DNA of 26,058 bases from a virus, in the IMG/VR virus record IMGVR_UViG_3300009164_000317, positions 1-26,058 of that record; one strand, 5' to 3'. Under the pieces are notes generated by a model. That model worked only from the letters and a program-made list of their open reading frames with translations. It did no database searches and was not told where the DNA came from. The first letter of the stretch is position 1; each line of letters starts with the position of its first letter. This document shows positions 2,667 through 23,735 of this stretch, piece by piece. The translations under genes and the position numbers were made by a program.

Positions 2667-4216
2667 CCAACCACAACTTCAATTGTACCAATATCGGTAC
2701 TGGAGTAACTTTCTAGTGCTTTGCCAATGATCACACCTGGTTGATATTTGCTCATATCTAAGCGTTCAGCAACACCAGCACGGTTGCTAGATACCACACG
2801 ATCACCTGCTGTGATTGGACCAATCACCCGACATGGCACACGGCCAATCAAGCCAACTTCCACTGTAAATTCTGATTGCAGTCCTGAATTCATCACGTGT
2901 GCTGGGTGTGTAGATACTACCCCGGCAATTTTGTTGTCATGAGTCACCGTGCTCATGGTGACTTCTTGTGTGCCACCAAATACTACTACAGTACCTGGAG
3001 GATATTGCGCATCGGCTTTATAAACTTCGGCCAAGTCAGCATAGAGTGCTGTGGTTGCTTGAGCAAACAATCTGTTGAAATAGTTGCTGGCGTTGCCAAT
3101 GTTGGCTGTGGCGTTGGCAGTACTGGTTTGAATGTTGCCTGAAACGATTAACACACCGCTACCTAAGGCGGCTGTGCCATTAATGATCACGTTTGAATGA
3201 ACAGCATTGCCTGTTGAACTCATTAGTCCAGCAGTTAGAATGTTACCACCAATTACGTTGGCAGTGACACTGAGTATACCAACCGGTATATTGGTTTGTC
3301 CTGAGCCGTTAGGGTTCAAGTTGATGTTACCGTTAGAAGTGGTGTTAATCCACAATGTGCCGGTGTCAACAATGTTGCCGGTTAAACTATGGTCGCCACC
3401 TGTTATGAGAGCGCCTGCGGCACTAATCAGGCCACCTGTCAACAAATTACCACCTGTAACGTTGGCAGTAACAGAAACCACTGAGCCTAGATGACTTGTA
3501 CCAGTGATTGTACTAGTAGCACTAATTAATCCACCTGTCAACAAATTACCACCTGTAACGTTGGCTGTTACAGCCAATGAACCCAAAGTACCAACTGATG
3601 TAATGTTGGTTTGTGCGACTGTGGTTAGCGTACCAACAATGTTAGTACCTGACAAATTACCACCTGTAACGTTGCCAGTTGCACTGATCAATCCACCTGT
3701 TAAGAAGTTAGCACTAGTTATGTTGCCACTTACACTGGATAAACCAGTTGTATAGATTCCAGTTGATGCTACAACAAACACATTTGATGTACCACCAATT
3801 GTGATGTTGGCGTTACCGCCACTTGTGCCAATATTGGCTTCACTTGTGCCGTTAAATATTTTGCTGGCGCTGAGTCCACTTAATGCGGCACCATTACCGA
3901 TAAAATAAGGGGCAGTTACGTTGGCGGCTGCAGATATCAATCCACCAGTCAAGATGTTACCACCTGTAACGTTGGCTGTTACAGATACCACTGAACCCAA
4001 ATGGCTTGTGCCAGTAATTGTACCTGTGGAACTAATCAACCCACCAGTTAGCAGATTACCTGCTGAGACGTTGCCTGAAAATGTAGCACTAGAAACAACT
4101 AGTGTACCAATAATGTTTCCGCCATAGATATTGCCAGTGGCAGAGATAATACCCCCACTGGATATGATATTGCCTGTTGCTGATATTCCTGTTGTACCGT
4201 CTAGTGATAATGCCAT
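2657..4216 (-). CDS. Tail-fibre-like repeat protein with C-terminal Peptidase_G2-like domain
   Basis: A 519-residue protein beginning MALSLDGTTGISATGN, a short N-terminus common in phage fibre proteins. Residues about 10-385 are a degenerate Gly/Asn/Thr/Ser repeat built on ATGNVTGGNLLTGGLIS, probably a beta-helical shaft. From about 385 a different domain starts at ALYADLAEVYKAD and runs through KIAGVVSTHPAH and GLIGRVPCRV to GTIEVVVGRL. This resembles Pfam Peptidase_G2 (PF11962), a self-cleaving intramolecular chaperone at the end of beta-helical tail proteins. The assignment is by memory of the pattern, and cleavage is not shown. The same domain closes the 2099-residue fibre at 6412-12711, with near-identical DNA at its start. 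The start codon follows GAGGACAGG, a likely ribosome-binding site. The last 6 bp overlap the stop of the Nudix gene on the other strand. Confidence 0.75.
   Translation of the reverse strand: MALSLDGTTGISATGNIISSGGIISATGNIYGGNIIGTLVVSSATFSGNVSAGNLLTGGLISSTGTITGTSHLGSVVSVTANVTGGNILTGGLISAAANVTAPYFIGNGAALSGLSASKIFNGTSEANIGTSGGNANITIGGTSNVFVVASTGIYTTGLSSVSGNITSANFLTGGLISATGNVTGGNLSGTNIVGTLTTVAQTNITSVGTLGSLAVTANVTGGNLLTGGLISATSTITGTSHLGSVVSVTANVTGGNLLTGGLISAAGALITGGDHSLTGNIVDTGTLWINTTSNGNINLNPNGSGQTNIPVGILSVTANVIGGNILTAGLMSSTGNAVHSNVIINGTAALGSGVLIVSGNIQTSTANATANIGNASNYFNRLFAQATTALYADLAEVYKADAQYPPGTVVVFGGTQEVTMSTVTHDNKIAGVVSTHPAHVMNSGLQSEFTVEVGLIGRVPCRVIGPITAGDRVVSSNRAGVAERLDMSKYQPGVIIGKALESYSSTDIGTIEVVVGRL
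3031..3079 (-). repeat. Dispersed direct repeat, copy 1 (partner at 6780-6828)
   Basis: These 49 bp match 6780-6828 with a single mismatch, and 3042-3079 is a 38-bp exact match to 6791-6828. They encode the start of the shared C-terminal domain (FNRLFAQATTALYADLA). Flanking DNA has diverged much more. This suggests recent gene conversion or recombination between the 519- and 2099-residue fibre genes. Confidence 0.9.
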
Positions 4217-6411: not shown

Positions 6412-9400
6412 TTAATGCTTGCCAATCACGATTTCAATTGTGCCTTTGTCGCCGTCGAAGTCTTCTAGTGATTTACCAATTATAGTACCTACTTTTGGAC
6501 TTGTAATTGTAACTGCTCTGGCGGTGCCGTCTCCAGCACTGACCATCAAGTCACCTTTGCGTACTGTGCCTGTTACACTGACTGGTACACGACCAATCAA
6601 TGCCACTGTGACCACATGTTCACCAACGACTCCTGCGTTCATCAAGTGAGCCGGATTTGTTGAAACCACACCAGCAACCCGCTTGCTGGAATCTACAGTA
6701 CTTATAGTAACTTCTTGTGTGCCACCAAAATCTAAAACAGTACCAGAAGCGTAGTCAGCATCGCCTACGTAGTTCTCTGCCAAGTCAGCGTAGAGTGCTG
6801 TGGTTGCTTGAGCAAACAATCTGTTGAAGTAAACGCTGGAACTACCGATGTTACCAACGGCGTTGCCTTGACCGTTAACTATGTCTTTGTTAACAATAAT
6901 TACACCTGTACCATTTGGACTTAAAGTAATGTTGCCATTGCTCGAAGTACTAACAGTCAATGCGCCAGTATCAACGATGTTACCTACTAGGCTTATGTCT
7001 CCACCGACCTGTATTGCGCCAGTTGCTGATATCAATCCACCTGTCAACAAGTTGCCACCGGTGATATTACCAGTAACACTTGTAAGACCTGCATTGATCA
7101 AGTTGCCTACGTTTACGTTACCGGTTGCTGATATTAGTCCACCTGTCAACAAATTGCCACCGGTTACGTTGGCTGTTACAGAAACTACACTACCTAAATG
7201 ACTTGTACCAGTGATTGTACCAGTAGAACTGATTAGTCCACCTGTCAAGATATTGCCACCAGTTACGTTGGCTGTCACAGCCAATGAACCCAAAGTACCA
7301 ACACTTGTAATATTAGTTTGTGCGGCAGTAGTTAGCGTACCAACAATATTAGTACCTGACAAATTACCACCAGTAATATTGCCAGTTGCTGATATCAATC
7401 CACCTGTCAAGATGTTGCCACCTGTAACGTTACCAGCCACGCTGGATGTTGCGGTTGCACCGGCTAATACTGTGGTTCCACCTGCTGGGTTGGTCAGCAC
7501 AATTGCTGTGGCGTTGGCACTGATTTGAGCGTTGCCCAAATAAATTGTGCTGTTGCTCAACCACAAGTCTTTCCAACGCTGTGATGTTGAACCTAAATCA
7601 TAAGTGATGTTGGCACTTGGCAAGAAGTTAGTTGCCAAAGTCAATGCAGTTGTACTAAACACAGCAGTGTTACTTGTGCCAGCAATTGTGATATTGGCAT
7701 TGCCGTTTGGTGACTGAATGTCAATCTGTGTTGTGCCATTCTGTATGCGATCGCCCAGGATGTTACCACTCAGTGTGGCATTGCCTGACACACTCAAGTC
7801 ACCTGTGATCGAGACCAAAGTTGGTGTGACCACCATCACATTTGATGTGCCACCCACTGAGGTTGTGACGTTACCACCAGACCCATTCACTGTAACGTTT
7901 GATGTGCCGTTGTTGATGTTGCTTACACTTGTAATAATGCCGCTAAGTGAAGCACCGTTACCATAGTAGTTCACAGCATACACATTGGCAAATGATTGAC
8001 TTGAACTACCAATGTCGTATGTGGCATTGGCATTGACCAACAGGCTACCGGAAATTGCCACGTTGGCAACCACTCCGCCAGCAAATGCAGGGCTGGATAC
8101 ATCGACCCAGTAATTACTTGTGCCATCATAAAGGTACTCGTACAACACATCCGTTGAAGTGTTATACCACTGGTCGGTCACTTTAGGATTTGGAGTTGTA
8201 GGAGGTGCTGTATTGGCTGTGTATATTATGCCAGGAGGAACTGGAGTTCCGTTGGCATAAAAATAGTTGTTGGTGAGTATGTTACCACCAGCAATGTTAC
8301 CTGAGGTACTGATCAAACCAGTTGTGGTAATGTTACCACCAGTTACGTTACCGCTTACACTGACCACACTGCCCAGGAAACTTGAACCAGTGACTGTACC
8401 AGTTGAACTGATCAATCCACCTGTCAACAAGTTGCCACCGGCAATATTGGCTGCGCTGGTAATAGTTCCAGTTGAACTGATTAAGCCACCTGTCAACACA
8501 TTGCCGCCTGTTACATTACCACTCACACTCAACAGTCCATTAATGTATTCACCAGTAGTGGCAAATACGGCTACGTTTGATGTTCCACCAACACTGACTG
8601 CCACGTTGGCATTGGCCGCATAGATACTAACGTTTGATGTACCATTGTTGATATTGGCTACTGATGTAATAACTCCACTTAGGAATGCACCATTACCCAA
8701 GATGTAGTTACCAGTCACATTACCAGTTGCTGACACTAGTCCTGCAGTTAGCACATTACCACCAGTGATGTTGGCAGCACTAGTGATTGTTGATGTAGCA
8801 GAGATCAACCCACCAGTTATCAAGTTACCACCAACAACGTTGGCAGTAGCACTAATTAATCCACCAGTCAGTACGTTACCGCCTGTGATATTGGCAGTTG
8901 CCGAGACTGCACCGCCTGTGTTTACGTTACCACCAGTTACGTTGCCGTTTGCACTGATTAAACCAGTTACCAGTAGACCTGCACCAGTGAAAAGTCCCAC
9001 ATTACTTGCACCACCTATGGTGATACCAATATTACCGTTAGTGGCACCTGCAATGTTTGAAGTTCCTGCTGTGATTGGGAAGCCTGCTGAGGTAGCAGTA
9101 ACACCTGTTAGTTGCGAGCCGTTACCAATAAAGAATGAGCCTGTGTTAGCGGTAATATTACCAACTGCACTTATTTGACCAGCAGTTAAAATGTTGCCAC
9201 CAAGAATATTGGCTGTTGCAGATACTATGCCACCTGTCAACAAGTTTCCACCGGTAATATCAGAAGTAGCAGAGATCAAACCACCAGTTAAAACATTGCC
9301 ACCAGTTACGTTACCACTCAATGATGCAATAGTACCGGTTAAACTTGGTGCGTTGACAATAGTAGTAGCAATTACATTGTTGCCGTTGACGTTCGCCGCA

Positions 9401-12400
9401 CTAGTGATTGTACCAGTTGAACTAATCAATCCACCTGTTAAGATGTTACCGCCAGTGATGTTGGCTGAACTTGTGATTGTTGACGTTGCAGATATTAATC
9501 CACCTGTCAACAAATTGCCACCAGTTACGTTACCACTTGCTGTGACAACTGAACCAATCAATGTAGAACCAGTGACAGTACCAGTGGAACTAATCAATCC
9601 ACCTGTGAGCAAGTTGCCACCGGCAATATTAGCACTACTTGTGATGTTACCAGTTGCTGTGATCACACCGCCTGTTGTGATGTTGCCACCTATTACATTG
9701 CCGGTAGAACTTACCAGGCCACCAGTGTTAAAATTACCTGCATCAACGTTGCCGGTTGTGCTTAGACTTGTACCGGTTGCCGCACCAATGTTTGGTGTTG
9801 TAAGATTAGCACTTGCTTTGACAATAATATTGCCACCGCCATCAAATGCGGTTGTGATGCCATCTGTCTTGGCTGAAAATACTGTGCCAGTTAGACTTAG
9901 ACCGGCTGCTGTGTTGGCTGAGTAAACTGGACTCTGGCTGAACACAGCAAATGAAATGTTACTAGTACCAAATGTAATGGTTCCTGGAGGGGCATTAACA
10001 ATAAATGCAGTACCAGCATTAACATTACCATTTGTGGTAAAGAAATAGTCGTTGATACTGATTTCTTCTGCGCTGTTTGCACCATATTGGTCAGTGTCTG
10101 TGGAACGAGTAATTACAGTGGCATTTGACCAAACATATACACCGTTTTGCACAGCGTTGGCTTGGTCCTTAACCAGGATACGTGTGCCTACTGTTTGAAC
10201 GTTGGCTGTGTCAATCAAGTTGAACGACGTGGTAGTTGTCAGCGTTGCACCAATACCATTGGCAGCACCATTGGGTTGAGCATACGTAATTGTACCACCT
10301 GTGGTTGTGGCCAATGTGGTTGTTGTGGCTGCATATACTGGTTCGTGGAAAGTGATACCAGTTGTGGCAATGTTATCAACATAAAGTTTGGTTGCCGCAT
10401 CTTGATTTTGTACCGGCTGGGCCAAGTTGTTGATGTAGGTATTGCCTACTGCCAACACAATGTTACCAGCAGGATTTAAGTTTATATCGCCTGTTGCGGT
10501 GCTAACTGTCAACGCACCGGTTGTTGGGCGAATAGCACTGGTATTAACGTTAGCGGCAATTACATTGCCTGCTGTGCTGAAAGATGTTGTGGCAAAGATG
10601 TTGTTACCAAACACATTACCTGCGGCAGTTACCACGCCCGAGGTTGCAATGTTACCACCTGTTACGTTACCAGTTGCCGAAACTAATCCACCAGTGTTAA
10701 CGTTGCCACCGGTTACATTACCAGTAGCACTTGCAAAACCGCCTGTGGCCAAGTTGCCACCTGTGACCGTGGCAGTTGCAGATATCAAGCCACCTGTTAA
10801 TAGGTTAGCGCCAGTGATATTGGCACCACTTGTAATAGTACTTGTAGCCGATATCAAGCCACCTGTTAATACATTACCACCAGTAATATTGGCTGAACTT
10901 GTGATGGTTGATGTTGCAGATATTAGTCCTGCTGTGAGCAAGTTGCCACCGGTTACATTACCTGTAGCACTTGCAAAACCACCTGTGGCCAAGTTGCCAC
11001 CAGTGACAGTAGCAGTGGCACTTACTAATCCACCTGTTAAGACATTTCCACCAGTTACATTACCGTTAGCACTGATGTTTCCAATTACGTCTAGACCCGA
11101 TTGAGTAAAGACTCCTATGTTGGCGGAACCACCCACTGTGATAGCAATGTTACCATTGGCTACTGGGGCCGCAATGTTTGAAGTTCCGCTGGTAATTGGG
11201 AATCCAGCACTGGTAGCAGTAACACCTGTTAGTTGCGAACCATTGCCAATAAAGAACGAACCTGTGTTGGCAGTAATATTACCAAGAGCACTTATTTGAC
11301 CTGCAGTCAAGATGTTGCCACCAGTGACATTACCTGTAGCAGTGATCAATCCACCAGTGGTCACGTTACCACTGATTACGTTGGCTGTGGCACTGAGTGT
11401 GGTGCTAGAAATTACATTGGCGCCAGAGATGTTGCCACCCGAACCCGAGGTGCTGATGTTACCAAAAGTACCGTTGCCAGTAGCACTTACTGCTCCAGCG
11501 GTTAAGATATTACCGCCAGTTATGTTGGCTGTGGCAGATATCAAACCACCTGTTAATACGTTGCCACCCGTGATGTTGGCAGCACTGGTAATTGTTGATG
11601 TGGCTGATATTAATCCGCCTGTTAATACATTTCCACCGGTTACGTTGGCAGTGGCACTTACTGAACCACCAGTCAACAAGTTGCCACCTGTGATGTTAGA
11701 AGTAGCAGATATCAAACCACCAGTCAAGACGTTACCACCAGTTACATTACCACTTGCTGTGACAACAGAGCCGATCAAAGTTGAACCGGTAACAGTACCG
11801 GTTGCTGAAATCAAGCCACCTGTCAATAGGTTACCACCTGTAGTGTTCCCACTTACACTTAATACGCCGGTGATATATTCGCCTGTGGTGGCAAACACTG
11901 CCACGTTTGATGTGCCATCAACACTGACTGCCACGTTGGCATTGGCTGCATAGATACTGACATTTGATGTGCCATTGTTGATGTTAGCAACGCTAGTAAT
12001 GACTCCACTTAAGAAAGCACCATTACCTAAAATATAGTTACCGGTTACGTTACCGGTCGCTGATACTAGACCAGCAGTTAATAAGTTACCACCTGTTATA
12101 TTGGCTGAACTTGTGATTGTGCTTGTGGCAGAGATCAATCCACCTGTGTTGATGTTACCGCCAGTTACATTGCCACTTGCTGTGACAACTGAACCAATCA
12201 GGGTTGTACCAGTTACTGTACCGCCTGCACTTACTAATCCACCTGTCAACAAGTTAGCACCGGTTACGTTACCGCCTGCACTTGCTGTGCCACCTGTTGC
12301 TAAATTACCACCAGTAACAGTACCGTTTGCACTTAATACGCCGGTGATATATTCGCCTGTGGTGGCAAATACAGCCACGTTGGCAGTTCCACCCACTGTA

Positions 12401-12711
12401 ATAGCAATGTTACTATTGGCAGCGGCTGCAATATTTGAAGTTCCAGCCGAGATCGGAAAACCAGCACTGGCAGCCGCAACACCGGTTAACTGTGAACCAT
12501 TACCAAAGTAGTACCCGGTGGTGCTTATGTTCCCGGTTGCACTGATTGTGGTACCAACTGTGAGCGCACCATTTACAGCAATGGTGTTGGCTGTGATAAC
12601 GTTGGCAGTGGATAAGATTCTAGTCCATGAATTGGTTGCACTAGAATACTGGTATGATACCTGGTTTACTACGGTTACTTGTCCATTTGTGGGCGATACT
12701 GGGAATGACAT
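6412..12711 (-). CDS. Giant tail-fibre-like repeat protein, 2099 aa
   Basis: A 2099-residue modular protein. Residues 1-45 are the MSFPVSPTNGQ module shared with the 720-residue fibre. Most of the rest is the 17-residue GNVTGGNLLTGGLISAT repeat and its 23-residue form. Embedded modules are a GNYILGNGAF/FATTGEY unit at about 220-300 and again at about 1335-1410, a GSFFIGNGSQLTGVTA unit at about 478 and about 1185, a 250-residue DAATKLYVDN/ILVKDQ/FTTNGNVNAGTAF domain at about 750-1000, and a TDQWYNT/YLYDGTSNYWVD unit at about 1495-1540. The end (from about 1965) is a Peptidase_G2-like domain. The DAATKLYVDN region resembles a common phage fibre domain. The start is supported by AGGAGA 9 bp upstream. 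There is no signal peptide or membrane segment. Likely role: a long fibre or extended virion appendage. Confidence 0.8.
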   Translation of the reverse strand: MSFPVSPTNGQVTVVNQVSYQYSSATNSWTRILSTANVITANTIAVNGALTVGTTISATGNISTTGYYFGNGSQLTGVAAASAGFPISAGTSNIAAAANSNIAITVGGTANVAVFATTGEYITGVLSANGTVTGGNLATGGTASAGGNVTGANLLTGGLVSAGGTVTGTTLIGSVVTASGNVTGGNINTGGLISATSTITSSANITGGNLLTAGLVSATGNVTGNYILGNGAFLSGVITSVANINNGTSNVSIYAANANVAVSVDGTSNVAVFATTGEYITGVLSVSGNTTGGNLLTGGLISATGTVTGSTLIGSVVTASGNVTGGNVLTGGLISATSNITGGNLLTGGSVSATANVTGGNVLTGGLISATSTITSAANITGGNVLTGGLISATANITGGNILTAGAVSATGNGTFGNISTSGSGGNISGANVISSTTLSATANVISGNVTTGGLITATGNVTGGNILTAGQISALGNITANTGSFFIGNGSQLTGVTATSAGFPITSGTSNIAAPVANGNIAITVGGSANIGVFTQSGLDVIGNISANGNVTGGNVLTGGLVSATATVTGGNLATGGFASATGNVTGGNLLTAGLISATSTITSSANITGGNVLTGGLISATSTITSGANITGANLLTGGLISATATVTGGNLATGGFASATGNVTGGNVNTGGLVSATGNVTGGNIATSGVVTAAGNVFGNNIFATTSFSTAGNVIAANVNTSAIRPTTGALTVSTATGDINLNPAGNIVLAVGNTYINNLAQPVQNQDAATKLYVDNIATTGITFHEPVYAATTTTLATTTGGTITYAQPNGAANGIGATLTTTTSFNLIDTANVQTVGTRILVKDQANAVQNGVYVWSNATVITRSTDTDQYGANSAEEISINDYFFTTNGNVNAGTAFIVNAPPGTITFGTSNISFAVFSQSPVYSANTAAGLSLTGTVFSAKTDGITTAFDGGGNIIVKASANLTTPNIGAATGTSLSTTGNVDAGNFNTGGLVSSTGNVIGGNITTGGVITATGNITSSANIAGGNLLTGGLISSTGTVTGSTLIGSVVTASGNVTGGNLLTGGLISATSTITSSANITGGNILTGGLISSTGTITSAANVNGNNVIATTIVNAPSLTGTIASLSGNVTGGNVLTGGLISATSDITGGNLLTGGIVSATANILGGNILTAGQISAVGNITANTGSFFIGNGSQLTGVTATSAGFPITAGTSNIAGATNGNIGITIGGASNVGLFTGAGLLVTGLISANGNVTGGNVNTGGAVSATANITGGNVLTGGLISATANVVGGNLITGGLISATSTITSAANITGGNVLTAGLVSATGNVTGNYILGNGAFLSGVITSVANINNGTSNVSIYAANANVAVSVGGTSNVAVFATTGEYINGLLSVSGNVTGGNVLTGGLISSTGTITSAANIAGGNLLTGGLISSTGTVTGSSFLGSVVSVSGNVTGGNITTTGLISTSGNIAGGNILTNNYFYANGTPVPPGIIYTANTAPPTTPNPKVTDQWYNTSTDVLYEYLYDGTSNYWVDVSSPAFAGGVVANVAISGSLLVNANATYDIGSSSQSFANVYAVNYYGNGASLSGIITSVSNINNGTSNVTVNGSGGNVTTSVGGTSNVMVVTPTLVSITGDLSVSGNATLSGNILGDRIQNGTTQIDIQSPNGNANITIAGTSNTAVFSTTALTLATNFLPSANITYDLGSTSQRWKDLWLSNSTIYLGNAQISANATAIVLTNPAGGTTVLAGATATSSVAGNVTGGNILTGGLISATGNITGGNLSGTNIVGTLTTAAQTNITSVGTLGSLAVTANVTGGNILTGGLISSTGTITGTSHLGSVVSVTANVTGGNLLTGGLISATGNVNVGNLINAGLTSVTGNITGGNLLTGGLISATGAIQVGGDISLVGNIVDTGALTVSTSSNGNITLSPNGTGVIIVNKDIVNGQGNAVGNIGSSSVYFNRLFAQATTALYADLAENYVGDADYASGTVLDFGGTQEVTISTVDSSKRVAGVVSTNPAHLMNAGVVGEHVVTVALIGRVPVSVTGTVRKGDLMVSAGDGTARAVTITSPKVGTIIGKSLEDFDGDKGTIEIVIGKH
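6780..6828 (-). repeat. Dispersed direct repeat, copy 2 (partner at 3031-3079)
   Basis: Second copy of the 49-bp sequence that starts the shared C-terminal domain, with one mismatch to 3031-3079. See that entry. Confidence 0.9.
8107..8136 (-). repeat. 30-bp exact dispersed repeat in QWYxT module, copy 1 (partner 14027-14056)
   Basis: Thirty identical bases occur here and at 14027-14056 inside a longer, roughly 200-bp imperfect match (about 8040-8240 against 13960-14160). Both encode the module with DQWY, YEYLYDGTSNYW and SPAFAGGVVANVAISG. One lies in the 2099-residue fibre and one in the 492-residue protein. Confidence 0.85.
9180..9730 (-). repeat. Degenerate 51/69-bp coding repeat block
   Basis: Successive copies encode variants of SATGNVTGGNLLTGGLI. 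Third-codon positions vary freely between copies while the Gly, Asn and Thr positions hold. The same type of array also fills much of 2700-4190, 4560-6050, 7020-7450 and 8270-8990. Confidence 0.8.
9740..10560 (-). repeat. Paralogous domain copy (partner about 18200-19020)
   Basis: About 820 bp encode a 270-residue domain that recurs in the 2380-residue giant fibre. Shared landmarks are DAATKLYVDN, PVYAATTTTLA, FNLIDTANVQT, GTRILVK, DYFFTTNGNVNAG and ANLTTPNIGAATGTSLS. Protein identity is visibly high but the DNA has many silent differences. This is an old duplication or repeated acquisition. Confidence 0.85.
10630..11080 (-). repeat. Tandem 51-bp repeat with 69-bp variants
   Basis: Equivalent points (CCRCCW) fall at 10688, 10739 and 10790, exactly 51 bp apart, and then at 10859, a 69-bp step. 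The long form adds six residues (STITSG or STITSA type) to the 17-residue unit. Confidence 0.85.
11300..12340 (-). repeat. Degenerate 51/69-bp coding repeat block
   Basis: N-terminal shaft of the 2099-residue fibre, with the same 17- and 23-residue units. It is interrupted by FATTGEY modules near 11860-12010 and 12340-12400, which share a 40-bp exact stretch ending in GGTGGCAAA. Confidence 0.8.
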
Positions 12712-12779: not shown

Positions 12780-13448
12780 TTATTTTATTTTTGTTTGCTC
12801 TGCTAACCACTGCTCTCGGGTCATTTGCGGCGGTTGTACTGCGGTTTTTTGCTGTTCTAACCACTGTTCTCTGGTCATCTTTTGAACACTTTCCAAAGAT
12901 GCTTGCTCTCTCAACCACTCTTCTGCGGTCATGGTACGAGTGACCGTGACCATATTTGTTGGTGTTGCAATGGGCACAGTTTTGACTTCAACTTGCGATG
13001 CTAACCATTCTTCTCGTGTCATTGGCGTTACTGACTGTTGTTGTGCTAACCACTGTTCTGCAGTCATCTTTGTTGTTGCTTCTTCTGCCAACCACTGCTC
13101 AACTGACATTGTTGGCGCCGACTGCTCTGCAGTTTGTGCATGGTTCGGAGAATATCGTGGGTATTTTTGCTTTACTGCCCGTATTCTGGCGGCCATCTCT
13201 GCTGGAAATACCCCAGCATGGTATAGCGCATCCAATTGTTCCTGGATACTAGGATATTCTCTAGCACGATTTCTTTGATATTCATTCCAGTCATAGGCCT
13301 GTTGCAAACGCTGTTGTTCTGCCTGTATTTGCTCTATGGTCACCGGAGCGACTTCAGGGTTGTGCCAAACTATTTCTTGATTGTATATGCCCACGCTGAC
13401 TTCTGCGCCGGGCACCAAACTTTGGATAGCATGAAATACAGTTATCAT
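12780..13448 (-). CDS. Tail-fibre assembly chaperone-like protein with six MTxEQWLAxQ motifs
   Basis: A 222-residue protein. The ATG at 13448 overlaps the TGA of the upstream fibre gene (ATGA) and has AGGAGA 10 bp upstream. An in-frame ATG at 13478 would add ten residues read from within that gene and is less likely. Residues 1-30 include SVGIYNQEIVWHNPEVAP, and 36-66 are a charged, Gln-rich helix. Residues 64-97 (YPSIQEQLDALYHAG, then RIRAVKQKYP) resemble small tail-assembly and XkdW-like phage proteins that follow fibre genes. Residues 114-218 hold six near-copies of a ten-residue motif at 114, 128, 143, 173, 191 and 209, joined by variable linkers. I do not know this repeat tail from a described family. 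The gene sits between two fibre genes, which suggests a fibre-folding or attachment role. Confidence 0.65.
   Translation of the reverse strand: MITVFHAIQSLVPGAEVSVGIYNQEIVWHNPEVAPVTIEQIQAEQQRLQQAYDWNEYQRNRAREYPSIQEQLDALYHAGVFPAEMAARIRAVKQKYPRYSPNHAQTAEQSAPTMSVEQWLAEEATTKMTAEQWLAQQQSVTPMTREEWLASQVEVKTVPIATPTNMVTVTRTMTAEEWLREQASLESVQKMTREQWLEQQKTAVQPPQMTREQWLAEQTKIK
12795..13109 (-). repeat. Six-copy MTxEQWLAxQ short-motif repeat
   Basis: The copies are MSVEQWLAEE, MTAEQWLAQQ, MTREEWLASQ, MTAEEWLREQ, MTREQWLEQQ and MTREQWLAEQ. Start-to-start spacings are 14, 15, 30, 18 and 18 residues. The 30-residue gap equals two 15-residue steps, as if one copy had decayed. Trp and Leu are invariant. Confidence 0.95.
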
Positions 13449-14923
13449 GATGCGGCAATCTCCTGCACTATCAACCAAATATTTGTGCTGGTCAGTGTAC
13501 TGCTGGCGTTAGATACCTTTTGCTGTAGTTTGTAGGTCACAGGACTTGTGGTTCCTGGTGAATCCATATAACTGTAACTCACCGCCCCTGTTGCGCCAAC
13601 CCCTGTTGCGCCAACTGTTTGTATCTGTAAACTGGTGCTAGGTGATCTAACTAACTGAGTGTCAGCACTAATGTCTTGTCCTACTACCGAAGTGAAACCA
13701 CTTGTGCCTGTGGCTATAACAAGAATTTTACTGGTTGCACTAGATGGTGTAATTATCACGTTGGCATAACTGATATCAGCATAAGATGTACTGTTAGTTG
13801 TACTACCACCCAGACTTGAACTCATTACCGTTTGCACCACAGCGCCCAAAGGCATGTTGTATGCAGGCAGTCTGTTGTTGGTGTAGAGATTTTGTGTGTA
13901 GGTGTTGCGGAAATATGCAGTGCTATTTCCCACATCATAACTGACATTGGCAACTGGCAACAATGTACCAGAAATTGCCACATTGGCGACCACTCCGCCG
14001 GCAAAGGCAGGACTGGTAGTATCGATCCAGTAATTACTTGTGCCATCATAAAGGTATTCGTATAGAACATCATTGGCGGTATCATACCACTGATCAGTTA
14101 CTTTGGGTGCTGGACTCACAGGAGGTGCGGTATTGGCTGTGTATACAATGCCCGGAGGAACTGGTGTGCCATTGGCGTAATAGTAATTGTTTGAAAGTAT
14201 GTTGCCACCAGTGATGTTACCACTGGCACTCATCGCCCCGGTAATGTATGCACCTGTGTTGGCCACAACTATCACATTGCCTGTGCCGTTCACACCCATG
14301 GTAATATTGCCATTGGCGGTGGCGATGTTCACATTACTTGTGCCATTGCTGATGAATGTGGTGTCTACTCCAAACTCACCAACGTATCTGTAACCCACAA
14401 TATAAATTACGTTGGCTGTTCCTGTACCAATAGCAGTTGGTATGGTTGCGCCATTAAAGTTTAGAACACCAGACTGGTAATCAAAGAACCAGGTGTCATC
14501 GCTGCCAGAACCGGCACCAAATAACTTGGTACCTGCTGTCTGAGGATTGCTTATGTTTGCGGCACCAGCATACACTTGTACCAGGTAGTTGTCGCCAAAC
14601 TGTGTAGGAATCCAGTTGATTGAGTTTGTCTTCCAGGTTTGATTGTCAGGTGCTGTTAGGTCTTCGGTACATTGTACAGCAGGACTGTATCCAGCGCCGC
14701 CACCATCTTTGTATACCTGTACCAATGATGTGGTATTAGCCGGAGGCGAAGCAGGTATGCTTCCACTCTGTGTCCAAATGAGATCGCCACGATACAGCAG
14801 TGGACTGGGTATGGTTTCGTTGAAGGCTTGCTTGGATTCAGGCTCGGCTGTTTTGGTCACGCCATAGCCGACCTTTTTCCAAAGATAATCAATCTTTTGT
14901 GATTCGTTAAACGAGGCGGCCAT
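13445..14923 (-). CDS. Tail fibre / baseplate-adaptor-like structural protein, 492 aa
   Basis: The N-terminus (FNESQKIDYLWKKVGYGVTK, then AFNETIPSPLLYRGDLIW) resembles structural proteins of T4-like marine phages and probably forms the virion attachment part. Residues about 95-180 carry a Trp/Tyr-rich domain (NWIPTQFGDNYLVQVY, DDTWFFDYQSGVLNF). A short GN-T shaft follows, then the QWYDT/YLYDGTSNYW module (about 255-315) shared with the 2099-residue fibre. The C-terminus (about 350-492) is a jelly-roll-like tip common in phage fibres: GAVVQTV, ITPSSATSKILVIATG, YSYMDSPGT and final WLIVQEI. The start codon overlaps the stop of the giant upstream gene as TAATG, with AGGAG 10 bp before it. Its stop overlaps the next start as ATGA, so the three genes appear translationally coupled. 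Confidence 0.75.
   Translation of the reverse strand: MAASFNESQKIDYLWKKVGYGVTKTAEPESKQAFNETIPSPLLYRGDLIWTQSGSIPASPPANTTSLVQVYKDGGGAGYSPAVQCTEDLTAPDNQTWKTNSINWIPTQFGDNYLVQVYAGAANISNPQTAGTKLFGAGSGSDDTWFFDYQSGVLNFNGATIPTAIGTGTANVIYIVGYRYVGEFGVDTTFISNGTSNVNIATANGNITMGVNGTGNVIVVANTGAYITGAMSASGNITGGNILSNNYYYANGTPVPPGIVYTANTAPPVSPAPKVTDQWYDTANDVLYEYLYDGTSNYWIDTTSPAFAGGVVANVAISGTLLPVANVSYDVGNSTAYFRNTYTQNLYTNNRLPAYNMPLGAVVQTVMSSSLGGSTTNSTSYADISYANVIITPSSATSKILVIATGTSGFTSVVGQDISADTQLVRSPSTSLQIQTVGATGVGATGAVSYSYMDSPGTTSPVTYKLQQKVSNASSTLTSTNIWLIVQEIAAS
14027..14056 (-). repeat. 30-bp exact dispersed repeat in QWYxT module, copy 2 (partner 8107-8136)
   Basis: Second copy of the 30 identical bases, within a roughly 200-bp imperfect match. 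It encodes part of the YLYDGTSNYWID segment of the 492-residue protein. Confidence 0.85.
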
Positions 14924-17900
14924 TAAGTTGCTACTCCTATCGACAAGGCTGTAATGGACTGTCCAGAAGCCAATGCAATTCTAATTAAAATGTTAGTCCC
15001 AGTACTATTGGCAGCGTTTTGTCCTCCCAAGGTCATTGTGTATCCTACGTTGGCTATTGCTGTATTTAACGGTATCACATCCGCACCGGTTAATGCACAT
15101 CCGTTTGAACCGTTGCCACCAGTACCGCTGGCAGCACCAGGAACCCCTGCTCCGGCATACTGTGTAGATGCTTCCAGCCATCCGTTAATGGTACTAGTAG
15201 GGCCTGGGAATCCCGGTGTGGGCGATGAGAATCCGCCGGAATCAATTGTGGTTCCTGGTGCTGCCACCCAAACACCTGCAACACCTGTGGTTGTGGTCAG
15301 TCTGATGTCAAAGTTTGCTAAACTTGGTCTTGCAAACGCAAAAGTAAAGTACTGTGTGGTGGTGCGATTTCCACCAATTGACAAGTTTGGTCCTACTGGC
15401 AAATATCCTGTTGACAAATCAACTGCATATCGTTGGAGTACCCCATACCGCACAACTGCTTCAGGCGTGTTAGCAATGGTTTGTGCTCCAGACCAAGCAT
15501 TAGATGTATAGTAGTTTATGCTGTTGGCAAACACAGGAGTATTGCCTGCGGTACTCATCACAATACGTATGGCTGCTTGTGTGTTGGCAGTGGGTGTGCA
15601 AGTGATTGACTGTTCGTTTATGCCAGAGTTTGCACCAGCATACATCTGTATGTTAGCAGGCAATTGCACTGTGGTACTGGTTCCTATCACGTTGAATATG
15701 TTGGCCTGCAACGTAGCCACTACGTTGTTGGCACCTGTTAAGTTGGCGGTCATGTTGCCAAGTGTGTAATTTGAACCAATGCCCACATTGGCATTCAAGT
15801 TTGAACCTGTTAAAAAACTGTTGGCGGCATTGTTGATTGTGCTGAGTGCTTTGGTTTGTGTTGCAGATACCAATGCTCCTGATCCTTCTGACACTGTTCC
15901 ACTGGCTAAAATAAAAGGATCAGCACTTCTAAATGTCTGTCCAGACAAGTTTGCCACTTCCAAATTGGCAATGGTAATTGTGGGCGATCCTGTGTTGTAG
16001 TAAGGAATACCCGAAATGTATCTGTAGGTTCCTGCAGTGGCTTCGACCATTGCGGTATTGGCGGTAACAATACTAGGTGCCGAATTCAAATTGTCTTTGA
16101 CAAATCCCACATAGTTAGTGTTGCCTGTTACTGAGTCTACCAATTTGTAGTTGTTGTAACCAGTGCCCAAACTACTCAAAGCACAAGCAATGTTGGCATT
16201 GAATACTTTGTAGAAATAACTGGGCACCGCGGCATTGGCCACGTGCAAATCTCGATCTTGTGTTACAACCAATGCTCCTGATGTTCCAACTGTGTTACTC
16301 ACATTGCTGAATGTCACATTACCGGCATTGGCATTGTTGACATAGGCAAACAAGTTGGCCGTCAACTGACTTGAACTTATTCCTGTATTGGCGTTTATAA
16401 TATTGGCTGCGGTAGCAATAGTTGTTGTGGTTGCAAAGCGTGTGACACTTACACCGTTGGCCACAATGTTGCCACCTGATGCATCTCTTGCGCCGGCTGC
16501 CAACAAAGGACTGGTTCCTTCACTAGTGTTAGCAATAGCCAAGTTAGAGAAGCCACTGAGGTTTGTGGGTGCTGTGGGGTTGCTGGCAATAAAAATATAT
16601 CCAGTGGTAGTCAATGTATTGCTTTGTGCTGTGCTAGTTATACCGTTAGGTGTACCATTGGCTGTGAGCGCCACAGTAAACGCACCAGTGCTGTTGTAGG
16701 TATGAAGGGTGTTGGCCACATTTGACACACCATTGCTAAATGTGCTGTCACCCCAGGACCAGTTGGCCAAATTGCTGTTTTGGCTGGTATTCTGGAATGT
16801 AAAGGTAGAACGATTGGAATTGTTATAGTCGGTATACAGATATCCAACTCGGGCATTGCCTGTGTTGGCTGTGGCATCTGTTATGACGTTGGCTGTGGTT
16901 CCAATATAGTTGGCACGAGTCTGTGGTTCAACAGTGATGGTGATGTTACCACTCTTGGCCGGGCTGGTACTGTAGCCAGTGTACAAGAACAAGTTGGCCG
17001 TGAACTGTTGATATGCATTAGCAGCCTGGTTGGCAGCACTCAGTGCAAATGTGTTGGTGACGTTGGCGGCACTTGGGTTACCTGCAATACCTGTTCCCAC
17101 GTTAACGTTACCAACATTACCATCACCATAATTGAAGTTGTACAATTGTTGTGCGCCAAAACTGGCTGTGTTTCCAGGAGTACCATTTGAATCATTACGG
17201 AAACTTATGCCACCAAGTCCATTGATCACGTTGGCTCGATTGGCAGTGACAAACACATTGCCTGTTTGTGGCGAGTAAACTTTGACGTTGCTGGCTGATG
17301 ATACAACAGTGACGTTGCTGGGTCCGGCTGTGTTACTAGTACCACTCAGGATCACGCTGTACAAACTGTCTGCGTTGGCTGAAACAGAATTGTACTGATG
17401 AGTCACATTGGTAAACGATGTATTGCCTAACCCAGGTCCGGCAGTAAAGTTAGCAGTACCGTCGCCAAAACTCAAATCATACCAAGTCACATACTGACTG
17501 GTGTTGGTTATGGTTATAGTGTTGCCAGTATTGAAACTGTTGCTACTCAGAGTAAATGATGGTATTGGACTTGGAGTGTACAACACAATGTTCGAAATGT
17601 TGGCGGTACTGGTAGAACCTTTGGCACCATTGGCTGCATTGCCGTTATAGGTTCCATTGGTATTGAAGGCAGTGAAGGTTACTGTGTAAGTTCCGCCCGA
17701 AGCATTACTAAATGTGTGAGTGGCATTGGCTGTGGTAACATTGGCTGTACCATCACCAAATTGCCACAAGAAACTGTTAGGATTACCAATATAATAACTG
17801 GTGAATGCCACCGTTAATGGACTGGGTCCAGAATAAACATTGGCAGTGATGTAAGCATTGCCCACGTATGTGCTGTTGGCAATGTTTAATGACACTTGAT

Positions 17901-20900
17901 TTAGATCATCTAAGCCATCTGTAACAAAAGTTGCTGTGGTCCACCCAGGATATGCAACGTTGACTGTTAGGCTACCATCTGTGGGGGTTCCCAAAGTGAT
18001 TGTGTTACCTTGACCGCCGGATGCAATAACTCCAGTGAGTTGACTACCGTTACCAATAAAGAAATTACCAGAAATGTTACCAGTTGCCGAGACTACACCA
18101 GCAGTTAGCACATTACCAAGTGTAGCATTGCCGGTTGCGCTGAGTAACCCTGACGTGAGTACGTTTCCGCCAGTGACATTACCAGTGGCACTTACCAGGC
18201 CGCTTGTGTTGACATTTCCACTGTTGATGTTGCCTATTAAACTTAAACTTGTACCTGTTGCGGCACCAATGTTGGGTGTGGTTAGATTAGCGCCTGCTTT
18301 GACAATGATGTTACCAGTGACATCAAATGCAGTGGTGTTGTTGTCTACCTTGGCATTAAACTGTGTACCTATTAGGCTTAGACCAGCATCCACATTGGCC
18401 GTGTAGGCTGTTGTTTGACTAAACAAGGCAAAAGTAATATTGCTTGTGCCAAACGTAATAGTACCTGTAGGTGCGTTAACTACAAATGCTGAACCAGCAT
18501 TAACGTTACCGTTTGTGGTAAAGAAGTAATCGTTTAGACTCAGTTGATTAGCACTATCTGGGCCATATTCGTCTGCATCAGTTGAACGAACTATAACAGT
18601 GGCATTGCTCCAAGTATACACACCATTGTATACCGCATTACCTTCGTTCTTGACAAGAATACGTGTGCCTGCTGTTTGCACATTGGCTGTGTCAATTAGA
18701 TTAAATGAACCAGTAGTACTCAAATATGCGCCAACACCATTGCTAACACCATTGGGTTGTGTGTAACTGATTGTACCACTTGTGGCCACTGCTAGTGTGG
18801 TTGTGGTGGCTGCATACACCGGTGAATGGAATGACAATGCTGACGACACCATGTTGTCAACATACAATTTTGTTGCGGCGTCAGTATCTTGTGCTGGATA
18901 TGCTACACTATTAATAAACGTGTTGGCCAACACAATGTTGCCAGCAGGTTGTAAATTCAAATTACCTGAGGCTGTGGTGATTGTTAGTTCGCCGCTTGTG
19001 GGACGAATATTACTGGTGTTTACGTTTCCAGCAATTACATTACCTGTGACGCTTGCAAATCCCGTAGCAAAAACATTGTTGCCTGAAATATTACCAGCGG
19101 CGCTAATTAAGCCACCTGTTAGTAGATTGCCGCCAGTTGTATTTCCTGTTACTGTTAAGTTGGCCAGTGTTCCAACTTGGGTTAGACTTGAATATAAAAC
19201 ATTTGAACTCAGTGTGTTACCAGTTAATGCATTGGCGTTTACACTAGATGCTGTAACACCTGTTAACTGACTGCCATTACCAATAAAGTAGTTGCCAGAA
19301 ATGTTACCGGTTGCCGAAACAACTCCACCAGTTAAGACATTACCACCTGTGATATTGCCACTTAAAGATGCTACAGATCCTAACAAACTGGAACCAGTGA
19401 CTGTACCAGTTGAACTAATCAATCCACTAGTTAAGATGTTACTGCCTGTGATATTACCACTTGCACTTAACAACCCTGTGATGTATTCCCCTGTGGTAGC
19501 AAACACTGCTACATTTGATGTTCCACCAACACCAACTGTGACATTGCCGCCCGAACTTACTACTGTAACATTACTTGTGCCATTGTTGATATTAGCCACA
19601 CTTGTAATAACACCAGTTAGTAATGCACCATTACCAAGAATATAATTACCAGTTACATTGCCGGTTGCTGAGATTACACCACCTGTTAGTACATTGCCGC
19701 CGGTGGCATTACCGGTTACGCTCAAGTTGGCTAAATTACCAACCTGAGTCAGGCTTGAGTACAAGACATTTGAACTTAGTGTGTTACCAGTTAATGCATT
19801 AGCATTTACATCTGACGCAGAGACTCCAGTTAATAATGAGCCGTTACCAACAAAATAGTTGCCGGATATGTTAGCCGTTGTTATTACAGGTCCGGTTAGG
19901 CTGACCAAGTTACCAGTATAAGTTGGCAAGTAATTGGCCACATCAGCATTGCTGTAGCCTGCTGGCAGTCCGGTAATGAATGCACCATTACCCAACAAAT
20001 AACTACCGGTAACGTTACCTGTTGCACTTACCTCGCCAATGATATAGGCGCCAGTATTGGCAAAAGATGCAATGTTGCTTACGCCTGCTGAACTTATTGT
20101 AACGTTGCCGTTAGCGGCCACAACAACATTGCTGTTTCCGTTTAAGATCGAAGTACCAGCACTGACTGTAATACCAGTTAATTGCGAGCCGTTACCAATA
20201 AAATAACTGCCTAAGACATTACCGGCTGTGAGTAGATTTCCACCTGTGATATTACCCGTAGCACTGAGAGACGCGGCGCCAAATGTTCCCGAAATAGAAA
20301 CATTGCCTGCAGATAGATTGCCAGTTACTGATATCGAAGAACCAATAAGATTATTGCCATAGACATTGCCTACAGCAGAAATAATACTGTCAACGTTGAT
20401 ATTGGCCGCATGTATATTGCCAGTATCCACGTTACCGCCAGTAATATTACCAGTGGCCGTAATAAATCCGGTAGTAACAAAATTGCCGCCTTGTACCTTT
20501 CCAGTAGCACTGACAATGTTAGATGTTATTGTACCACCAGGTGCATTGACATTACCACCTTGTATATTGCCTGTTGCTGATACTTGACCACTGGTTGTGA
20601 TATTACCCCCAACTATATTGGCAATGGCTGTGACAGTTGTGGCCGTGACAGTTGTTCCAATTAAATTGTTACCTGTTATATTACCGGCTGCAGAAATAGT
20701 TGATGCAACTGTGACTGTGTTTGCATTGACTCTGCCAGTATCAACATTGCCACCTGTAATGTTACCTGTGGCTGATATTTGACCTGCGGTGCGTAAATTA
20801 CCACCGGTGATGTTAGAAGTGGTTGTTACTGGGCCTGTCAGACTGACTAGGTTACCGGTGTATGTGGGCAAGAAAGCCGCCACGTTGGCATTGCTGTAAT

Positions 20901-22065
20901 TACCGGCTGGCAAGTTTGTAAGTTGACTACCATCACCAATAAAGTATGCACTGGTAGTGATGTTGGCCACTGCTGATATCAATCCACTTGCAGTGATGTT
21001 GGCCGCATTGACTCTACCTGTGTCAAGGTTGGCCGCAGTGATATTACCTGAGGCCAGTATTGTGCCCGATGTTCTTAAATTACCACCTGTTACGTTGGCA
21101 GTGGTTGTTACTGGTCCTGTCAGGCTGACTAGATTACCAGTGTATGTGGGCAAGAAAGCCGCCACGTTGGCGTTGCCATAATTGGCATTTATACCTGTGA
21201 GTAAACTACCATCACCAATAAAGTAACTACTGGTGGCAATATTGCCCACAGCACTTATGGTAGTACCTGTGGTGATGTAACCTGCGTTTAATCTACCGGT
21301 GTTAATGTTACCGCCAGTGATATTACCAGTGGCTGATATCTGTCCTGCTGTTCTTAAATTTCCACCGGTTACATTGGCTGTGGTTGTGACCGGACCGGTT
21401 AGGCTAACTAGGTTACCAGTATATGTAGGCAAAAAGTCTGCTACATTGCTGTTACCATAACCAATGTTGATACCAGTTAGTAATGCACCATTACCTAAAA
21501 TATAATTGCCAGCGATATTGCCGGTGGCACTAACTGTGCCGGCAACATATGCTCCGGTGTTGGCAAATGTTACAACATTGCTGGTACCGTTAACAGTGAC
21601 AAAGATGTTTGATCCAGCGGCAGGTATATTAATATTGCTGTTACCATTTGTAACTTGACTACCAGTTGTGGCCACAATGCCAGTGAGTTGACTGCCGTTA
21701 CCAATAAAATACCCAGCAGTAATATTGCCTGTGGTTGTTATACCTCCAGTGGTATTAATACCACCGGTGCCCAAATAGATGGAGTTAAAACGCAAACTAG
21801 GAGTACCAATGTCGTAAACATTGTCAAGCCTAGGAAATAAAGTATTGTTGAATTGTACACGTCCAATTCCTGATGGACTTAAGATTAAATTGCTGTTGAG
21901 AACTGTGGTGGTAATAGTATTATTACCAATTTGAATGTTGCTGAGCACTGGCCCTGCGGCAAAAATCTGATTGAAGTTTTCATTGGTATAGTCAAATGCT
22001 GTACGTAACGGACTGCCCTGCCCATCATCTGGGTAAGCACCAATGTCAATGATATACTGTGTCAT
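14923..22065 (-). CDS. Giant tail-fibre-like protein with PKD-like domains, 2380 aa
   Basis: At 2380 residues this is the largest gene here. Residues 1-90 (YIIDIGAYPDDGQGSPLRTA, NENFNQIFAAG, YDIGTPSLRFNSIYLG) look like an attachment domain. Residues about 90-1030 are shaft, including three tandem copies of a 93-residue module (FLPTYTGNLVSLTGPV) and the 17-residue repeat. Residues about 1030-1290 are the DAATKLYVDN domain shared with the 2099-residue fibre. Then come four PKD-like beta-sandwich units, marked by WQFGDGT (about 1433), LSFGDGT (about 1530), FNYGDGN (about 1643) and WSWGDST (about 1768). PKD domains in other proteins bind surfaces or sugars. Residues 1800-2200 are not recognised. 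The end (about 2240-2380) has a Gly-rich tip with FDIRLTTTTGVAGVW and NGWLEASTQYAGAGVPG. It has no Peptidase_G2-like domain. The ribosome-binding site before the ATG is weak. Confidence 0.8.
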   Translation of the reverse strand: MTQYIIDIGAYPDDGQGSPLRTAFDYTNENFNQIFAAGPVLSNIQIGNNTITTTVLNSNLILSPSGIGRVQFNNTLFPRLDNVYDIGTPSLRFNSIYLGTGGINTTGGITTTGNITAGYFIGNGSQLTGIVATTGSQVTNGNSNINIPAAGSNIFVTVNGTSNVVTFANTGAYVAGTVSATGNIAGNYILGNGALLTGINIGYGNSNVADFLPTYTGNLVSLTGPVTTTANVTGGNLRTAGQISATGNITGGNINTGRLNAGYITTGTTISAVGNIATSSYFIGDGSLLTGINANYGNANVAAFLPTYTGNLVSLTGPVTTTANVTGGNLRTSGTILASGNITAANLDTGRVNAANITASGLISAVANITTSAYFIGDGSQLTNLPAGNYSNANVAAFLPTYTGNLVSLTGPVTTTSNITGGNLRTAGQISATGNITGGNVDTGRVNANTVTVASTISAAGNITGNNLIGTTVTATTVTAIANIVGGNITTSGQVSATGNIQGGNVNAPGGTITSNIVSATGKVQGGNFVTTGFITATGNITGGNVDTGNIHAANINVDSIISAVGNVYGNNLIGSSISVTGNLSAGNVSISGTFGAASLSATGNITGGNLLTAGNVLGSYFIGNGSQLTGITVSAGTSILNGNSNVVVAANGNVTISSAGVSNIASFANTGAYIIGEVSATGNVTGSYLLGNGAFITGLPAGYSNADVANYLPTYTGNLVSLTGPVITTANISGNYFVGNGSLLTGVSASDVNANALTGNTLSSNVLYSSLTQVGNLANLSVTGNATGGNVLTGGVISATGNVTGNYILGNGALLTGVITSVANINNGTSNVTVVSSGGNVTVGVGGTSNVAVFATTGEYITGLLSASGNITGSNILTSGLISSTGTVTGSSLLGSVASLSGNITGGNVLTGGVVSATGNISGNYFIGNGSQLTGVTASSVNANALTGNTLSSNVLYSSLTQVGTLANLTVTGNTTGGNLLTGGLISAAGNISGNNVFATGFASVTGNVIAGNVNTSNIRPTSGELTITTASGNLNLQPAGNIVLANTFINSVAYPAQDTDAATKLYVDNMVSSALSFHSPVYAATTTTLAVATSGTISYTQPNGVSNGVGAYLSTTGSFNLIDTANVQTAGTRILVKNEGNAVYNGVYTWSNATVIVRSTDADEYGPDSANQLSLNDYFFTTNGNVNAGSAFVVNAPTGTITFGTSNITFALFSQTTAYTANVDAGLSLIGTQFNAKVDNNTTAFDVTGNIIVKAGANLTTPNIGAATGTSLSLIGNINSGNVNTSGLVSATGNVTGGNVLTSGLLSATGNATLGNVLTAGVVSATGNISGNFFIGNGSQLTGVIASGGQGNTITLGTPTDGSLTVNVAYPGWTTATFVTDGLDDLNQVSLNIANSTYVGNAYITANVYSGPSPLTVAFTSYYIGNPNSFLWQFGDGTANVTTANATHTFSNASGGTYTVTFTAFNTNGTYNGNAANGAKGSTSTANISNIVLYTPSPIPSFTLSSNSFNTGNTITITNTSQYVTWYDLSFGDGTANFTAGPGLGNTSFTNVTHQYNSVSANADSLYSVILSGTSNTAGPSNVTVVSSASNVKVYSPQTGNVFVTANRANVINGLGGISFRNDSNGTPGNTASFGAQQLYNFNYGDGNVGNVNVGTGIAGNPSAANVTNTFALSAANQAANAYQQFTANLFLYTGYSTSPAKSGNITITVEPQTRANYIGTTANVITDATANTGNARVGYLYTDYNNSNRSTFTFQNTSQNSNLANWSWGDSTFSNGVSNVANTLHTYNSTGAFTVALTANGTPNGITSTAQSNTLTTTGYIFIASNPTAPTNLSGFSNLAIANTSEGTSPLLAAGARDASGGNIVANGVSVTRFATTTTIATAANIINANTGISSSQLTANLFAYVNNANAGNVTFSNVSNTVGTSGALVVTQDRDLHVANAAVPSYFYKVFNANIACALSSLGTGYNNYKLVDSVTGNTNYVGFVKDNLNSAPSIVTANTAMVEATAGTYRYISGIPYYNTGSPTITIANLEVANLSGQTFRSADPFILASGTVSEGSGALVSATQTKALSTINNAANSFLTGSNLNANVGIGSNYTLGNMTANLTGANNVVATLQANIFNVIGTSTTVQLPANIQMYAGANSGINEQSITCTPTANTQAAIRIVMSTAGNTPVFANSINYYTSNAWSGAQTIANTPEAVVRYGVLQRYAVDLSTGYLPVGPNLSIGGNRTTTQYFTFAFARPSLANFDIRLTTTTGVAGVWVAAPGTTIDSGGFSSPTPGFPGPTSTINGWLEASTQYAGAGVPGAASGTGGNGSNGCALTGADVIPLNTAIANVGYTMTLGGQNAANSTGTNILIRIALASGQSITALSIGVAT
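18200..19020 (-). repeat. Paralogous domain copy (partner about 9740-10560)
   Basis: Second copy of the 270-residue DAATKLYVDN domain. Differences from the other copy are mostly silent or conservative. See 9740-10560. Confidence 0.85.
20800..21440 (-). repeat. Tandem ~280-bp (93-residue) module, three copies
   Basis: The FLPTYTGNLVSLTGPV segment recurs, with equivalent bases (TTACCRG) at 20852, 21134 and 21413, that is 282 and 279 bp apart. A fourth, separate copy lies at 19910. Each unit also carries a SYFIGDGSLLTG-type turn and a TGGNLRT shaft segment. Confidence 0.85.
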
Positions 22066-23687: not shown

Positions 23688-23735
23688 GACAATTGGTTTA
23701 TTTTAGCCAACATGACGGTTTTCTTAAATATCACT

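Follow-up and report, generated by a model that had tools for sequence, protein, structure and literature searches.

A putative fibre-tip chaperone with a repeated Trp-Leu motif arm of varying copy number in a phage lineage

A motif-arm gene between two fibre genes

The window, by which we mean the whole 26,058-base stretch analysed, is virus record IMGVR_UViG_3300009164_000317 of IMG/VR. The closest matches of its tail-sheath-stabiliser gene come from jumbo phages, among them Phosso, Atu_ph07 and Pseudomonas phage MIJ3 (33–38% identity), and contigs holding relatives of the gene studied here reach 178 and 200 kb, which suggests, from these sequence matches, that the phage belongs to a jumbo-type lineage. 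On the minus strand, a gene for a 222-residue protein follows a gene for a 492-residue fibre protein, its ATG overlapping the stop codon of the latter (ATGA). Behind it comes a repetitive 2099-residue fibre, the N-terminus of which was found directly behind the motif-arm gene in 10 out of 10 records searched. The features are as follows.

12780..13448, minus strand: whole gene, 222 aa, putative chaperone-type N-terminal domain plus motif arm (ORF translation)
13155..13448, minus strand: N-terminal domain, residues 1-98 (phrog_9114 match; AlphaFold2)
12783..13154, minus strand: C-terminal arm, residues 99-222, six predicted helical motifs and variable linkers (motif pattern, selection, AlphaFold2, copy counts)
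13080..13109, minus strand: motif 1, MSVEQWLAEE, residues 114-123 (predicted helix 116-126)
13038..13067, minus strand: motif 2, MTAEQWLAQQ, residues 128-137 (predicted helix 130-138)
12993..13022, minus strand: motif 3, MTREEWLASQ, residues 143-152 (predicted helix 145-154)
12903..12932, minus strand: motif 4, MTAEEWLREQ, residues 173-182 (predicted helix 175-185)
12849..12878, minus strand: motif 5, MTREQWLEQQ, residues 191-200 (predicted helix 193-203)
12795..12824, minus strand: motif 6, MTREQWLAEQ, residues 209-218 (predicted helix 211-220)
13445..14923, minus strand: gene lying upstream, for the 492-aa fibre protein that is the likely client (gene order, head match)
13448..13897, minus strand: predicted TNF/C1q-like head at the C-terminus (residues 343-492) of the 492-aa fibre (AlphaFold2, VIA, 9efk match)
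6412..12711, minus strand: next gene downstream, repetitive 2099-aa fibre (ORF)

The original prediction had described six C-terminal motif copies with an invariant Trp-Leu, and this string is real, following the pattern M[TS]xE[QE]WLxx[QE]. When the 112-residue tail was shuffled 100,000 times, M[TS]xE[EQ]WL occurred once in 25 of the shuffles and never more than once; the six occurrences observed therefore exclude chance. Mean identity between the six copies is 67% at the protein level and 74% at the DNA level, and Tandem Repeats Finder (TRF) run on the gene DNA found no tandem array. Across ten records, including the two of 178 and 200 kb, all 41 matches to TxE[EQ]WL, a search that misses Ser copies and degenerate copies, fell inside the motif-arm gene, which was present as one copy in each of eight records searched.

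Against 50,697 deposited phage records the arm gave two matches only (E 0.3 and 2), which we took as chance; it matched nothing in the PDB, and our literature search found no publication on such an arm. Three exact-pattern matches to the string in cellular genomes were rejected, as by eye they were short or repeat-like frames lacking the N-terminal domain.

Motifs are conserved and linkers are not

We scored as a copy any Trp whose next residue is Leu, Phe, Ile, Val or Met, and obtained 131 copies in 23 distinct proteins. Position 6 is by this definition Trp in all 131. Leu comes next in 120 of them, with Phe in 6, Val in 4 and Ile in 1; in the window's protein Trp-Leu is invariant. The remaining consensus is Met at position 1 (106 copies, with Leu in 12), Thr or Ser at position 2 (107 and 16), Glu at position 4 (114), Gln or Glu at position 5 (67 and 58) and Gln at position 10 (116). 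Use of the motif Met codons as internal translation starts was considered and rejected: besides the 12 Leu, position 1 is Ile in 4, Thr in 3, Arg in 3, Lys in 2 and Val in 1 of the 131 copies, and no clear Shine-Dalgarno sequence was seen by eye where one would normally be expected ahead of the window's six motif ATGs, two of which have purine-rich stretches farther upstream (also by eye).

Read as the start of a helix, the motif places Met at N′, Thr at the N-cap, Glu or Gln at N3 (the capping box) and Trp at N4, where it would form a hydrophobic staple with Met. Staple and cap fit in 119 of the 131 copies, which have a hydrophobic residue at position 1, Ser or Thr at position 2 and Glu, Gln or Asp at position 5. 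AlphaFold2, run with 61 sequences, placed six helices from residues 116, 130, 145, 175, 193 and 211, that is, from position 3 of each motif, with pLDDT of only about 50–70 for these helices and below 50 for most linkers. Each motif is thus predicted, with modest confidence, to be a short helix between disordered linkers, and the Trp-Leu pair would be its putative recognition face.

The original prediction held that copies of one motif are joined by variable linkers, and selection on the two parts bears this out. Among 13 six-copy sequences, dN/dS was 0.069 for the motifs, 0.084 for the N-terminal domain and 0.403 for the linkers, while mean amino-acid identity was 0.85, 0.87 and 0.48, respectively, so that conservation is much lower in linkers than in motifs. 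Synonymous sites of the motifs change freely (pS 0.625), which places the constraint on the motif protein itself and not on an overlapping frame. The motifs are under strong purifying selection and the linkers under weak selection.

These values bear on whether the arm might be a low-complexity tail with no specific task. Its linkers are indeed variable and rich in T, Q, P and A across the family, and its copy number drifts, as such a tail might; yet the motifs match the folded domain in their low dN/dS, at high synonymous divergence, and the motif is retained where linkers have been replaced wholesale, as in the relative L033. We consider this explanation already disfavoured and highly improbable.

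Copy number varies among relatives

Relatives were collected by IMG/VR searches, one of which kept the best 80 of 526 matches, the copy numbers of the others being outside our counts. Copy number, for which the original prediction had suggested a comparison among relatives, is not fixed: the 23 distinct proteins, including that of the window, hold one (L078), three (L072), four (L077), five (3 proteins), six (15 proteins) or nine copies (L021 and L027). One of the copies counted in each of the five L074-group proteins is degenerate (EQQ[HN]W[VI]AQQ type) and drops out under a stricter pattern, and L031, the contig of which ends before the arm, is excluded from the counts and included in the tree below. 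L147 has one motif-plus-linker unit more than L074 and L146, and in the nine-copy proteins a three-motif block is duplicated (within L027, at a DNA identity of 84.6% across 104 bases). L033 and L045 keep six motifs, joined by entirely different linkers that are rich in Pro and Ala.

A decayed seventh copy had been suspected in the 30-residue step of the window's arm. The linker there (VEVKTVPIATPTNMVTVTRT) contains neither Trp nor Leu, and each copy of the block duplicated in L021 and L027 is followed by a step of 28–30 residues, so we dropped this idea. Linkers between counted copies lack Trp in all 23 proteins, which follows in part from the way copies were scored (Trp plus one of the five hydrophobic residues named above).

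A tree of the N-terminal domain, built from 24 arm-side rows (L031 among them) and 25 chosen arm-less rows, separates the two sets by one fully supported branch (100/100) and requires at least seven changes of copy number. On this tree a single gain of the arm is enough, with valency apparently changing ever since. The upstream frame has a median length of 516 in 19 arm-bearing loci versus 203 in 61 others; since only one gain of the arm is needed, any link between the arm and long fibres counts as one event. We saw by eye no relation between copy number and the length of the adjacent fibre, with frames cut at the locus start, and rejected such a link. Shaft words number 1 in the window's 492-residue neighbour, versus 29 in the 2380-residue and 70 in the 2099-residue fibre. 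The arm-bearing contigs are presumably of freshwater origin.

The same comparisons can be set against a structural role, in which the motif helices pack on one another or on the N-terminal domain within a trimer, whose 18 helices would build a helical stalk or some larger structure. Helices that are short, capped and hydrophobic on one face are well suited to packing against each other, and the fibre chaperone gp25 of phage Pam3 trimerises through helices (PMC9608196). Against a fixed stalk, motif spacing varies between lineages (14, 15, 30, 18, 18; 33, 27, 15, 37, 15; 20, 16, 27, 27) and the linkers evolve fast; L078, moreover, has a single copy. We regard self-packing as unlikely.

The N-terminal domain defines a family of function-unknown phage proteins

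Residues 1-98 of the window's protein match positions 1-101 of the 103 in phrog_9114 (E 3.3e-20), a group of unknown function in PHROGs, and so do all 61 aligned family members; the profile covers the N-terminal domain without the arm. In HTVC010P, HTVC026P, P-SSP7 and S46-C10 the domain stands alone as a protein of 96-102 residues. AlphaFold2 models it as a helix, a beta hairpin, a long helix and two short helices (block mean pLDDT 80-89).

No Pfam or NCBIfam family exceeded its cut-off for the 222-residue protein. Neither Phage_tail_APC (PF16778; 60 positions, cut-off 26.6 bits) nor the Tfa/Caudo_TAP fibre assembly family, which we take to be PF02413, was listed for it at E ≤ 1, and neither was among the 25 of 31 families listed for the 61 members at E ≤ 0.1. 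Those listed were mostly weak and unrelated, the best being WD40_4 (9.8e-5), and the phage family XkdW matched one member (E 0.027).

A PDB sequence search with the N-domain family detected no family member, its only match being a chance one (3gqu, E 0.14), and fold comparison with the PDB by Foldseek and VIA gave no clear match; the best rows there were weak, and 7YPX and 5YVQ were absent from both lists. In BFVD, two fold matches reached E ≤ 0.001, both to proteins with no named function, and one further match was named ‘Phage tail assembly chaperone-like’ (E 0.14).

The domain is paired with a predicted TNF-like fibre head

The C-terminal domain of the 492-residue fibre was modelled by AlphaFold2 with a mean pLDDT of 89.8. 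In VIA its nearest structures are the TNF-like lectins PLTL (Z 14.9) and BC2L-C (Z 14.2), the comparison with 9ib7_B giving Z 14.9 and an rmsd of 2.1 over 125 residues, and we therefore predict a TNF/C1q-like jelly roll. The head family profile also matches the C-terminus of orf22 in PDB entry 9efk (E 1e-31, residues 499-658 of 658), for which we found no publication. The PHROGs group phrog_6942, ‘tail fiber protein’, is matched by 36 of 58 head members; for the head of the window's fibre there was no PHROG match at E ≤ 0.01.

Gene order ties the head to the N-terminal domain. Taking as upstream frame the longest one ending between −300 and +60, 77 of 80 such frames end −27 to +3 nt from the start of the family match. 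A held-out fibre-head profile matched 69 of 72 distinct upstream proteins at E < 1e-3, with E-values computed for small test sets, training sets that may include close relatives, and a best reversed control of E 0.066; the three misses were L120 (borderline), L081 and L126.

In the reciprocal direction we took 14 named head-bearing phages, namely the 13 behind 19 records (one of four Melnitz records being used) and S46-C10. Directly behind the head gene, ten have a family member (E ≤ 2.3e-9) and two a Phage_tail_APC protein; HTVC024P has a weak match (E 0.001) and ctn9Y15 neither. Seven of the ten had already been family matches, and the other seven phages of the set divide into three with a family member, two with Phage_tail_APC, one weak and one with none.

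Heads and partners are not always equal in number. In P-SSP7 the five genes tested include four head genes and one family member; for Lederberg and Melnitz-3 the ratio is two heads to one partner; MEP402 (L158, 941-2692) has two successive pairs of head and N-domain partner; and phiAxp-1 has a 63-residue family member (E 6e-10) with no head in two genes tested. This unevenness suggests that one partner may serve several heads in arm-less phages, in which case the arm is not needed for several heads. In each of the ten arm-bearing records searched, two of which measure 178 and 200 kb, there is one strong head match (G013 has one further at 12 bits), which disfavours an arm that serves several types of head.

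C-terminal modules look interchangeable with a tail assembly family

In Synechococcus phage S-B05 and in Melnitz-3, the slot behind the TNF-like head gene, equivalent to that of the 222-residue protein, holds Phage_tail_APC (PF16778) proteins of 107 and 127 aa (E 8e-16 and 8e-13), the latter annotated as ‘tail fiber assembly protein’. The Lederberg and Melnitz-3 proteins have their N-terminal half in common (first 69 residues; 38% over 72 columns, E 2e-11 as a single comparison), but the former ends in a YPSI module and the C-terminal module of the latter differs. Similarly, the S-B05 protein and gp40 of P-SSP7 have 51 N-terminal residues in common (29%, E 3e-5) and differ in their C-terminal modules. 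Because a common N-terminal half is joined to differing C-terminal modules in one gene slot, the modules appear to have been swapped, and they look interchangeable on one N-terminal part. The Phage_tail_APC proteins lack a motif arm, whereas the C-terminal module here is of the YPSIxEQLDxLYH type, with no PF16778 match; comparison with the S-B05 chaperone-like protein by hhalign gave nothing significant (E 0.12). This apparent exchange is the strongest argument for a fibre chaperone, the function of PF16778 itself coming from annotation only.

Two described systems resemble the arrangement. In Pam3, the fibre gp24 has a TNF-like domain and gp25 is its chaperone (PMC9608196); gp25 (7YPX) consists of a beta module followed by a helical module, as predicted for the N-terminal domain here, and the accessible part of that paper describes no motif arm for gp25, unlike the 222-residue protein. 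Compared with gp25 and with Tfa of phage Mu, the N-terminal domain here has no more than a hairpin as its beta part, and there is no PDB sequence match. In the V22 paper, gp27 of Alteromonas phage V22 and gp9 of A5 are transient chaperone caps, each encoded by a small gene directly behind the fibre gene and built of a helical body and a beta hairpin, as here. At 195 aa, gp27 is twice the size of the N-terminal domain, no motif arm is described for gp27 or gp9 in the passages considered, and hhalign detected no similarity to gp27 (probability 0.1, E 0.51). The fibre-assembly character that the original prediction assigned to the N-terminus is thus backed by gene order, the upstream TNF-like head and the exchangeable Phage_tail_APC module, and not by direct chaperone homology: our searches found no direct homology of the 222-residue protein to a proven chaperone.

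Precedent also exists for proteins that stay on the particle. According to the V22 paper, Mu Tfa, encoded directly behind its fibre gene, remains on the fibre tip, and S16 fibres bear a terminally attached protein. The 222-residue protein could likewise be a permanent virion part, a fibre-tip cap or adaptor whose arm acts as a multivalent adhesin or baseplate anchor. The sequence gives no signal either way, but Phage_tail_APC proteins of the same slot are named assembly chaperones, and the PDB holds a relative of the fibre head (9efk) while no family member is detectable there. On balance we find a permanent virion part improbable.

A proposed role for the motif arm

Our best reading, which we hold to be an even call, is that the protein is an intermolecular assembly chaperone, or transient cap, at the fibre tip, acting on the TNF-like head of the preceding fibre and extended by a multivalent helical docking arm. 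The motifs, their selection, the changes of copy number, the gene pairing and the C-module exchange are its observed side; the helices and the TNF-like head come from models, and chaperone action and docking would follow from them by inference. The N-terminal domain of 98 residues would cap the TNF-like head and help it to fold and trimerise during synthesis, and the ATGA overlap would couple synthesis of head and partner. One jumbo-type lineage would then have gained a disordered arm of one to nine short helices, each started by Met and Thr and offering its invariant Trp-Leu face. The copies would be equivalent docking peptides, raising avidity for a partner that itself offers several equivalent sites; the most plausible partner may be the fibre chains or another component of fibre assembly. 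Candidates would include multiple chains of a single fibre as well as the long repetitive fibre whose gene comes next.

A bolder version, which we offer as tentative and rather doubtful, is that the chaperone has turned into a multivalent scaffold, an evolution-tuned array of one to nine copies that would gather several fibre chains or fibre types at one assembly site. We know of no other phage fibre chaperone with such a motif array.

The docking partner might instead come from the host, the arm recruiting a host chaperone, protease or translation factor to the site of fibre synthesis or disabling it. Tandem copies of a motif whose strict pattern was confined to this gene across the ten phage records fit an outside partner. 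A search of cellular genome contigs with one exact two-motif pattern gave no like string, although such a string is not required in a host partner; we think a host target distinctly improbable.

If docking by a fibre chaperone is correct, phages would have built a valency-tunable docking array onto it, and since natural relatives with 0, 1, 3, 4, 5, 6 and 9 copies exist, valency is directly testable. The proposed role for phrog_9114, as partner of a TNF-like fibre head in Pelagibacter, Prochlorococcus and Methylophilales phages and in the window's jumbo-type lineage, would aid annotation of receptor-binding modules in aquatic phages.

Further observations at the locus and in other phages

The 2380-residue fibre (14923-22065, minus strand) has a PKD domain at about residues 1412-1475. 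A 997-residue protein of L033 starts like this fibre and ends in a TNF-like head, which may mean that the 2380- and 492-residue genes of the window are a split form. The 519-residue (2657-4216, minus strand) and 2099-residue (6412-12711, minus strand) fibres have, by eye, similar C-terminal domains unlike the TNF-like head, with ends of the form YADLAE ... GTIEVVVGRL / GTIEIVIGKH.

Beside the fibre genes, 22125-22712 (minus strand) weakly matches the phage alpha-2,3-sialyltransferase family phrog_4603 (E 8e-5) and also phrog_30607, of unknown function (E 3e-34). At 23724-24893 (plus strand), TPR repeats are fused to a glycosyltransferase family 9 part, and the product is possibly involved in glycan modification linked to the fibres.

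Second, short family members were seen in L157 (HTVC106P; 148-477, E 2e-12) and L152 (S30-C28; 3839-4006, E 7e-12). Limnohabitans phage DC33 (L149, PQ492659.1), of 39 kb and with a TNF-like fibre-head protein, is recorded as Inoviridae, which is probably a misclassification.
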